A DNA stretch of 43,080 nt from Pirellula sp. (GTDB taxonomy: Bacteria; Planctomycetota; Planctomycetia; Pirellulales; Pirellulaceae), in assembly GCA_025459355.1 (NCBI GenBank), contig JALOQS010000035.1:1-43080 (forward strand). Reading direction: 5' to 3'. Within the stretch, counting starts at the first letter, position 1; each line of letters starts with the position of its first letter. The position numbers and the translations under genes are program-made. Positions 26,166 to 31,921 of the stretch are shown here, one piece after another. The notes beneath the pieces are model-generated. The model saw nothing but the letters and a program-made list of their open reading frames with translations. It was not told the origin of the DNA and made no database searches.

Positions 26166-27989
26166 ATGATGCGTATTGCCAAGACCCATTCTTACACGGG
26201 CCCGAATCGATGGTCCAAAGAGCCCGTTGCCGAGTATTACATCGAGTTCGATCGCGACACATCGCCAGCAGTGTCCGAGTTATCAAGCATCGTAGACGAT
26301 TTGCATCGATTGTCTGGAGTTGAGGCGGCATCATTTCCTCCACAGCGATTGACAGATTTCTCGTTTTTATTGCCGTTCGAATACGAAGAGCTCGATCTGT
26401 TGACCGAATGTGTTCGGACTGCCATGCGGCTTGTACGGGAGACACCGGTCGGACAAGCGATCGACATCATGACGGAGCACCGTCGGTTGGTAGATTTGGC
26501 AGACGATCTACGGCTAGGCCCCAGTTCGCGGGCTATTTTGCGGGCTGCGAAATCCAAAGGGATTCCTTACTTTCGACTCAATCAAGGGAGCTTGGTCCAG
26601 TTCGGTCAGGGAATTCATCAGCGTCGCACATGGACAGCGGAGACCGACGCGACCTCGGCCATCGCCGAAGCCATCGCTAGTGACAAGCAGTTAACGCGGT
26701 CACTCTTAGAAGCGGTTGGCGTGAACGTTCCGCGAGGGCGTCGAGTTGCAAGCCGAGAAGACGCATGGGCTGCCGCACTCGAAGTCGGATTGCCTGTCGC
26801 CGTCAAACCTAGAAACGCAAATCATGCCGTGGGTGTATCGCTCGACCTATCGGACCGCGATTCGGTTATGGATGCTTTCGACTGGGCTTGCCGGGCCGGC
26901 CATACGACCGATGTATTGGTCGAACAATTCATCAAAGGGGATCATCACCGAATTCTGGTGATCGGAGGAGAATTAGTCGCTGCCGCACGCGGGCAGCGTG
27001 AATACGTTTGCGGAGATGGCGTCAGTTCGGTGCAACAATTAGTTGAAGAGCTGAACCGTGATCCGAGAAGAGGCGAAAATTACACCGACATTTTGCAAGT
27101 AGTCAAACTGGATGATGCGGCTGCGATCGTGTTGCGCAAGCAGGGTTTGGAGTTCCATTCGATACCAGAAGCCGGGCGACAAGTCTTGGTAGTGCATGTG
27201 GGGGATTTGATCGAGGACTGTACTGATAAGGTGCATCCGCAGACGGCCGATGTTGCGATATTGGCGGCCAAAACGGTTGGGCTCGACATAGCCGGCATGG
27301 ATGTCGTCGCAGAAGACATTTCTAAATCTTTGACCGAACAGCGTGGCTGCATCATTGAGGTTAACGCAGGCCCCAGCCTCACTCCTCACGTAGCCCCTCT
27401 CATCGGGTCACCTAGACCGGTCGGCGATGCCGTGGTCAAACTGCTGTACCCATCGGGCACCCCCTCTACGGTTCCGATTTTTTTGTTGGTCGATGCCGCC
27501 CAGCATTCGGACTACGATACCAATGAGTTTGCTCATCGACTCATCGAGTCGCTTCAAACAAAAGGGCATTTCGTTGGCATGTCAGCGGATCGCGAAGTCT
27601 CTGTATCGAATCAAGCCTCTTTCGTTCAGCGGCCTGTTTCAGAGTTCCGCTCGCTTTTGCTTCATCCCAAAGTGACGACCATCGTTCTTCAGATGACGTG
27701 GCGACAAATCTTCGAAACAGGAGTGCCTTGCGGCGGCATTGAAACGATCATTTGCTCCGAAAAAGTGAGCCCTCTCAGTGGCGACCCGAAAAGCAACGAC
27801 TCGCCAGCAGCGGCTTCATGGCTGGGGGCTCTCGCGTCCATAAAAAATGCCATGTCGGATACGGGAGTCTTCTACCGAGTAGGCAATCAAACACCAACAG
27901 ACTTCCATTCCGTCTTCATCGATGCGACCGCTTCTTCATTTCAAAACAGGGAAAGCTTTGCCGGGCTTTCCGAATTGATAGGCATTTGA
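26166..27989 (+). CDS. Cyanophycin synthetase (CphA)-like ATP-grasp ligase with vestigial C-terminal Mur-ligase region
   Basis: GPNRWS N-terminal motif; LGPSSRAILRAAKSKGIPYFRLNQGSLVQFGQGIHQRR; ATP-grasp LPVAVKPRNANHAVGVS ... VEQFIKGDHHRILVIGGELVAAA ... CIIEVNAGPSLTPHVAPLIG. The region after YPSGTPSTVPI lacks a GTNGKTT P-loop. Start inferred at MMRIAKTHSYTGPNRWS (track start 26025). Confidence 0.85.
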   Translation: MMRIAKTHSYTGPNRWSKEPVAEYYIEFDRDTSPAVSELSSIVDDLHRLSGVEAASFPPQRLTDFSFLLPFEYEELDLLTECVRTAMRLVRETPVGQAIDIMTEHRRLVDLADDLRLGPSSRAILRAAKSKGIPYFRLNQGSLVQFGQGIHQRRTWTAETDATSAIAEAIASDKQLTRSLLEAVGVNVPRGRRVASREDAWAAALEVGLPVAVKPRNANHAVGVSLDLSDRDSVMDAFDWACRAGHTTDVLVEQFIKGDHHRILVIGGELVAAARGQREYVCGDGVSSVQQLVEELNRDPRRGENYTDILQVVKLDDAAAIVLRKQGLEFHSIPEAGRQVLVVHVGDLIEDCTDKVHPQTADVAILAAKTVGLDIAGMDVVAEDISKSLTEQRGCIIEVNAGPSLTPHVAPLIGSPRPVGDAVVKLLYPSGTPSTVPIFLLVDAAQHSDYDTNEFAHRLIESLQTKGHFVGMSADREVSVSNQASFVQRPVSEFRSLLLHPKVTTIVLQMTWRQIFETGVPCGGIETIICSEKVSPLSGDPKSNDSPAAASWLGALASIKNAMSDTGVFYRVGNQTPTDFHSVFIDATASSFQNRESFAGLSELIGI

Positions 27990-30976: not shown

Positions 30977-31921
30977 ATGACTTTCAAGAAATTTACTAGA
31001 GAATTTGCTAGCGTAACCGAGGCGGCGGGCCATTTGGCTGTTGCCATCAAAGCGGATGCGATCCTATTTCTTCTCGATACCGGCACCGACTGGGAACGGC
31101 TTCGGGAGCTGGTGCCGCCGGAGATCAAGCGGATCCTGGTGGCAGCGGACCGGGCTGAGGACCTAGCCGAAGCGGAGGAACATGGTTTGATCCCACTGGT
31201 CCTCAACAAAGAGGATTCTCCTCTGCTGGAACGATTGCAACACGCCCTCATCGAGGCCGTTGCAGACGAACTGTTGGCTAGCCACTGCGACGTGATCGCT
31301 GTCTATTGCGGGTTTGAGGTCAACCGAGTGGATTCGGTGTCCATCATTAGACTTGATGAACGCATGAGACGATTCACCAGCCGCGATCTGCAGCGTCTGG
31401 AGAGCTCGGTCCCGCTCAATACTCTTAAGCTGGTCATCGACCTCGCCGTTCAAATCGGACGAGAAGGTCGCGAGGGAAACAAAGTCGGCACCTCGTTCAT
31501 TGTCGGGGATACTCGCAAGGTTCTGCAACACTGCAAGGACAGTGGTTTTGATCCACTCAAAGGGTACAGCCGAAAGAATCGAAACTTGCATGACCCTCGC
31601 GTGAGAGAGGACATTAAAGAAATCGCTCAACTGGACGGAGCGTTTGTCGTTTCGTCTGACGCAATCGTCGAACGATCTCGCCAAATACTCGAAGTATTGC
31701 ACGAAAATCTTCAACTCTCCAAGGGACTAGGGTCTCGCCATTGGGCTGCCGCTGCTATCTCGCAACGGACCAAAGCAATATCCATTGTGGTAAGCCAATC
31801 TAGCGGAACCGTTCGCGTCTTTCAAAACGGCGCCCTCGTGCTTCGTATCGAACCGATGGACCAAGCGGTTAAGTGGCAGGAATTCAACTACGAGACACCG
31901 GCCGTCGAAGGCGATGATTAA
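30977..31921 (+). CDS. dacZ: DacZ-like diadenylate cyclase (c-di-AMP synthase): N-terminal pyruvate-kinase-C-like domain plus C-terminal DAC domain
   Basis: C-terminal LDGAFVVSSDAIVERSRQILEV...GLGSRHWAAAAISQRTKAISIVVSQSSGTVRVFQNGALVLRI (DGA and RHx motifs); N-terminal KADAILFLLDTGTDWERLRELVPPEIKRILVAADRAEDLAEAEEHGLIPLVL. Confidence 0.82.
   Translation: MTFKKFTREFASVTEAAGHLAVAIKADAILFLLDTGTDWERLRELVPPEIKRILVAADRAEDLAEAEEHGLIPLVLNKEDSPLLERLQHALIEAVADELLASHCDVIAVYCGFEVNRVDSVSIIRLDERMRRFTSRDLQRLESSVPLNTLKLVIDLAVQIGREGREGNKVGTSFIVGDTRKVLQHCKDSGFDPLKGYSRKNRNLHDPRVREDIKEIAQLDGAFVVSSDAIVERSRQILEVLHENLQLSKGLGSRHWAAAAISQRTKAISIVVSQSSGTVRVFQNGALVLRIEPMDQAVKWQEFNYETPAVEGDD

Follow-up and report, generated by a model that had tools for sequence, protein, structure and literature searches.

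The locus raises the question of whether a short gene in Pirellula sp. that resembles cyanophycin synthetase (CphA), which makes a polymer in which bacteria store nitrogen, is a broken copy or an intact enzyme and, in the latter case, which reaction it would catalyze. The window, the whole stretch of 43,080 nucleotides that was analyzed (contig JALOQS010000035.1, assembly GCA_025459355.1), contains a reading frame that is intact from the ATG at 26166 to a stop codon ending at 27989; its 607-aa product and its homologues are called S here. As proposed in the original prediction, the product is a CphA homologue. It matched the cyanophycin synthetase families far above chance, with 476 bits for NF010623 and 365 bits for TIGR02068, which do not reach the cut-offs of 877 and 850. 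The best PDB match was CphA1 (7lgn, 267 bits), and CphA2 (8fxh) scored lower (155 bits). The scores for N-acetylglutaminylglutamine synthetase (TIGR03103, 144 of 569 bits) and the glutathione synthetase GshF (NF002688, 158 of 425 bits) lay below the cut-offs of both families.

A tblastn search with a complete CphA1 M domain revealed no decayed M domain downstream of the gene, the best match (E 0.031) lying elsewhere. In pairs of S genes close enough to measure, each of the three gene parts had a dN far below its dS; for two close pairs, dN/dS was 0.046 and 0.04 in the G domain, compared with 0.16-0.28 in the ends. The identical short architecture was found in 24 genomes. A frameshift or truncation by sequencing error was rejected on these three grounds, and the S gene is an intact family member, not a broken gene. 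The features of the gene are listed in Table 1.

Table 1. Features of the S gene in the window, and proteins encoded upstream of S in relatives. Residues in brackets after window residues follow SuCphA1 numbering.
Feature	Position	Strand	Evidence or remark
S-type short CphA-like ligase, whole gene	26166..27989	+	607 aa; ORF, family matches, 23 further S-type homologues
N-domain remnant, residues 1-110	26166..26495	+	alignment; ~45 aa shorter than CphA1, Cx19HxxEH absent
ATP-grasp G domain, conserved core, residues 111-428	26496..27449	+	invariant columns, low dN/dS, pLDDT mostly 85-98
K174 (K220), ATP-grasp lysine, conserved	26685..26687	+	alignment
K214 (K261) to H220 (H267), second ATP lysine and catalytic His	26805..26825	+	alignment
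E253 (E300) and R262 (R309), conserved	26922..26951	+	alignment; R309 role PMC9427784
G276 in place of CphA1 R323	26991..26993	+	residue classification
Remodelled omega-module acceptor loop VHVGDLIED, residues 343-351	27192..27218	+	N394 to D347, S396 to I349, 397-401 deleted
D379, E398, N400 (D431, E450, N452), conserved	27300..27365	+	alignment
T406 in place of CphA1 R458	27381..27383	+	residue classification, alignment
Mur-ligase core remnant, residues 436-532	27471..27761	+	alignment and model; without P-loop, lid, DH motif
Variable C-terminal tail, residues 533-607	27762..27986	+	partly low-confidence model; no family match
Pro/Tyr-rich upstream proteins	L036:9826-11496, L037:2349-4352, L038:6247-7722, L040:9864-11924, L041:663-2528, L042:8804-10537		

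The N-terminal and ATP-grasp regions had both been thought to follow CphA closely. This was true of the ATP-grasp region, where the close match starts at about residue 111, but not of the N-terminal region, in which about 45 residues are missing, including the Cx19HxxEH motif. In the alignment C59 corresponds to a gap, and H79, E82 and H83 are all replaced by S in the window protein. This motif is the metallopeptidase-like, primer-making endo-cyanophycinase site of the N domain and is found in about 80% of CphA1 (PMC9262961). In the S-type protein the primer-making site is, judging from the aligned columns, lost.

At the junction with the Mur-ligase half the window protein reads VPIFLLVDAAQHSDYDTNEFAHRLIESLQTKGHFVG, the CphA1 counterpart being IPIxAVTGxNGKTTT. 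The P-loop columns T494, G495, N497, K499 and T500 are occupied by V, D, A, H and S, respectively, and there is no counterpart of D585/H586. The alignment was inspected for an intact P-loop or lid and neither was found, in agreement with the prediction of a missing Mur P-loop. Since the Mur ATP site and lid are gone, the second, Arg-adding amidation step has probably been lost, as had also been suggested, and the early end of the protein was verified, 170 aa past the junction. The expected remnant of the Mur fold was recovered as well: VTTIVLQMTWRQIFETGVPCGGIETIICSE matches VAVLETARGGILRAGLAFDSCDVGVVLN column by column, and the predicted structure sits on the M-core fold of CphA1 and CphA2. 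As a query of their own, the C-terminal 177 aa gave no match by sequence; in the family alignment, however, they run along the first half of the Mur core of CphA1, lacking its P-loop, lid and DH motif. The AlphaFold (AF2) model of the window protein had a pLDDT of 88 and a pTM of 0.86, with pLDDT below 50 at residues 537-544 and 575-599 of the tail. The whole-chain Foldseek match was CphA2 (7ta5, TM 0.78/0.81), TMq with CphA1 being 0.71-0.76; identity in the structural alignments was higher with CphA1 (23-29%) than with CphA2 (20-21%).

The G domain has been strongly conserved. A comparison of 13 S proteins gave more than 100 invariant columns, of which nearly all fall within this domain. In SuCphA1 numbering, which is used below for active-site residues, S proteins retain K220, K261, H267, E300, R309 and D431/E450/N452, the last three of which (D379, E398 and N400 in the window protein) we take to be the Mg-binding triad, as in ATP-grasp enzymes. 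Window residues K174, K214, E253, R262, D379, E398 and N400 were invariant across 51 diverse homologues. In CphA1, the growing chain is bound by R309 through its C-terminal carboxylate (PMC9427784). As read from residue conservation, the G-domain site is intact where it binds ATP and the donor, whereas the acceptor side is rebuilt.

In CphA1 the β-carboxylate of the incoming Asp is held by R323 and N394 and its α-carboxylate by R458, and the Asp also occupies the space beside S396, which lies on the omega loop 389-399 (PMC9427784). These positions were classified in 121 CphA1, 24 S, seven CphA2 and nine proteins of a full-length paralogue, called X. Position 323 was R in all CphA1 (121/121) and CphA2 (7/7) and G in all S (24/24) and X (9/9). 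Residues 397-401 were deleted in 24/24 S and 9/9 X, and in no CphA1 or CphA2. N394 was replaced by D in 24/24 S and S396 by T or I, and no S protein of the 24 kept R458. Of 86 positions invariant in CphA1 (conserved in at least 95% of the 121 sequences), S has lost 13 (307, 323, 325, 352, 353, 394, 396-399, 401, 458 and 464), among them neither R309 nor any ATP or Mg position. The pocket residues G323, Y353 and D394 are invariant clade-wide. By alignment, S is thus altered at all the residues with a known role in holding the incoming Asp. The loss of R323 and R458 and the gain of D394 would leave a pocket less fit for a dicarboxylate, which argues for a neutral or cationic acceptor, and with the Asp-gripping residues lost the S enzyme may join another building block.

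The origin of S was analyzed in two G-domain trees, one of 75 rows and one of 83 rows with the trait columns removed, in which the seven CphA2 sequences came from cyanobacterial genomes. In both trees S was nested in Planctomycetia CphA1 and CphA2 formed a distant, separate clade (100/100), so that membership of S in the CphA2 clade was rejected. With the trait columns removed, support was 100/99 for S, 100/96 for X and 100/98 for S+X. CphA2 is defined by the lack of P-loop(M), Mlid and N-domain motif (PMC9427784, PMC9262961), and the window protein has this layout, including the size of about 600-640 aa. Of the suggestion that S is "CphA2-like or a distinct planctomycete class", the CphA2-like layout and the distinct class (its own clade) therefore both stood, and descent from CphA2 did not. 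S seems to have reached the CphA2 layout by a separate route, the layout having apparently arisen a second time, in another phylum. To our knowledge this layout, a G domain with a dead Mur half, has so far been described as a cyanobacterial speciality. A literature search found no description of the S family, an absence that does not prove that none exists.

X is a full-length CphA paralogue of planctomycete family f4 (for example L209:4018-6738 and L210:3802-6459) and forms the sister clade of S. R323G, the loop deletion and the loss of R458 are common to both; unlike S, X has its N-domain motif, Mur P-loop and DH motif all intact. Since full-length X has the same pocket deletion, the surviving X suggests the order of events, the acceptor pocket having been remodelled first and the N and M active sites lost later. 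X usually lies in tandem with a second CphA1, and in the three pairs that were read (L208, L209 and L210, from genomes G428, G514 and G362) this adjoining CphA1 copy lacks the N-domain motif.

The S family was found in 24 Planctomycetia genomes: that of the window, 12 more from its own family, and 11 from other families of Planctomycetia. A distribution limited to family f1 was overturned by a profile search of 398 genomes of the class, in which S also turned up in f4, f5 and f106. Another CphA was carried by 23 of the 24 S genomes. In the f1 sample, CphA1 or a split CphA pair was present in 12/12 genomes with S versus 5/137 without it (Fisher p = 4e-14, a value that ignores shared ancestry). 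A cyanophycin-associated DUF1854 gene was present in 22/24 S, 7/7 X and 8/8 CphA1-only genomes and in 0/10 genomes without CphA. S directly adjoins genes for DUF1854 and an ABC transporter in G023 and G880, which belong to different families; no neighbour gene was conserved across the S family. In the window genome, which is 76.5% complete, a different contig encodes a complete CphA1 next to an NCBIfam "cyanophycin metabolism-associated" ABC transporter and a DUF1854 protein, indicating that the organism has kept cyanophycin synthesis. A search of this genome for cyanophycinase returned an S51 cyanophycinase-like protein just under the family cut-off.

The gene upstream of S was considered as an operon clue and rejected, since the window has a DUF11 protein there, at a distance of 230 bp, that is not related to the product of the upstream gene in relatives of the genus. 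In six genomes of the genus, not including that of the window, a Pro/Tyr-rich, secreted-looking protein (491-686 aa) is encoded directly upstream of S (Table 1); the two that were scanned (L036 and L041) had no Pfam match, and L036 had no NCBIfam match. Elsewhere in the window (30977-31921, + strand) a protein with a DacZ_P sensor domain and a DAC diadenylate-cyclase domain is encoded.

On balance, and with little better than even confidence, we propose that S would be a ligase with a single, ATP-grasp active site and would lengthen or cap peptides of the cyanophycin type, using an acceptor that is not free Asp. A planctomycete CphA1 may have been duplicated to give the S/X ancestor; the acceptor side of the G-domain site would have been remodelled first, a state still visible in X, and the two other sites, for primer making in the N domain and for Arg addition in the Mur half, would have been lost next, leaving S. 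S would phosphorylate the C-terminal carboxylate of a cyanophycin-type peptide, a donor to which R309 alone points, and the activated carboxylate would be coupled to an amine other than free aspartate. Candidate acceptors, guessed from charge, are the β-Asp-Arg dipeptide and a cationic amine or amino acid. The cell may in this way obtain, besides the cyanophycin of CphA1, a form that is longer, capped or chemically altered. A ligase is favoured by the conserved ATP, Mg and donor residues, by a G domain under strong purifying selection, and by the nearly obligate co-occurrence with CphA1 and ABC/DUF1854 genes. The glycine-rich loop counts against it, reading NHAVG instead of NHGRG in the window protein and two relatives. 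Moreover, the acceptor loop is kept in CphA1, CphA2 and the GshF and N-acetylglutaminylglutamine synthetase compared, so its shortening could weaken or abolish catalysis by S.

S could also be a functional CphA2 by convergence, repolymerizing the β-Asp-Arg released by cyanophycinase into cyanophycin as cyanobacterial CphA2 does. The layout, size and losses (P-loop, lid and N motif) are the same, the model resembles CphA2 as noted above, and 19/24 S genomes carry a cyanophycinase-like gene. S and CphA2 also both lose R458 and change positions 352, 353 and 464, but convergence in the lost positions was rejected because the overlap was not significant (p = 0.11), and the two proteins have separate origins. 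R323, N394, S396 and the loop are kept by CphA2 and none of them by S. Furthermore, five S genomes (G023, G059, G098, G736 and G778, with loci L032, L035, L034, L253 and L254; 87-99% complete) contain CphA1, S and DUF1854 and neither a recognised cyanophycinase nor an IaaA-type isoaspartyl dipeptidase, other hydrolases being possible, and would make cyanophycin with no known means of breaking it down; this lack of a known dipeptide source argues against simple CphA2-style dipeptide recycling, and we consider this explanation unlikely.

Slightly less likely still, S may be a weakly catalytic or non-catalytic partner that binds the cyanophycin chain, or CphA1 in a mixed oligomer, and regulates chain length, priming or hand-over to ABC/DUF1854. 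The loop that is shortened in S normally closes over the active site, which leaves room for such a role; S is nearly always found with CphA1, and X is usually in tandem with a CphA1 lacking the N motif, as if the pair shared the work. On the other hand, neither S nor X shows any variation at the ATP, Mg and donor positions, and of the parts of the gene the G domain evolves most slowly; both would be unexpected if catalysis were dispensable. In addition, most S genes are unlinked to CphA1. A decaying duplicate or pseudogene with no present function is very improbable: two of three ancestral active sites are lost and the ends of the gene change fast, but the frame is intact in 24 genomes of several families, dN is well below dS in every domain of the measurable pairs, and the altered pocket residues are themselves invariant in the clade.

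It is conceivable, though we would not count on it, that S and X are ligases of the cyanophycin type whose specificity has shifted to a new acceptor. The cyanophycin of some planctomycetes would then differ in its chemistry or carry a capped end, and the associated MsbA-like ABC transporter and DUF1854 protein may handle it. If the acceptor of S is indeed a different one, the range of cyanophycin-like polymers would grow. Since the pocket changes affect residues whose roles are known from structures, specificity is directly testable by enzyme assay.

Other CphA-type arrangements were observed. In L043:5485-10020 (G040) and L044:1350-6140 (G057) the two copies of a tandem CphA pair have decayed in complementary ways: in one the Mur half is active and the ATP-grasp domain gutted, and the next has an intact ATP-grasp domain and N motif and a dead P-loop (AGTRGRNTT and SGHRGTLAA). 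These pairs look like a CphA1 split into two subunits. Two CphA-type proteins of G057 (L044:1350-4055 and L008:428-3067) contain long in-frame short tandem repeats (VGDLA..., VGQATH...). On a Ruegeria plasmid (L205:6304-8040) cphA is directly followed by a gene for a "Mur ligase family protein" with intact P-loop and DH motif and no working ATP-grasp domain, which resembles an M-only partner. A 1004-aa protein of a Microvirga ossetica plasmid (L079:2027-5041) fuses a CphA-like ATP-grasp domain with a part annotated as CapA family.

Among known systems, the bifunctional CphA1 (SuCphA1 of Synechocystis, 7lg5; TeCphA1 of Trichodesmium, 7wac/7wae) has the G fold, the ATP, Mg and R309 residues and H267 in common with S, but also has Cx19HxxEH, the Mur P-loop, lid and DH motif, R323/N394/S396/R458 and the five loop residues, all of which S lacks. 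CphA2 (Gloeothece citriformis, 7ta5; Stanieria, 8fxh/8fxi) is like S in its length of about 600-640 aa, its P-loop-less Mur core and the lack of the N motif. The seven cyanobacterial CphA2 sequences nevertheless retain R323, N394, S396 and the acceptor loop, none of which S retains, and position 267 is K in CphA2 and H in S; R458 is lost in both. N-acetylglutaminylglutamine synthetase and GshF have a related ATP-grasp domain joined to other partner domains and, unlike S, keep the N-x-x-TGG acceptor loop, which is also kept in the RimK class.
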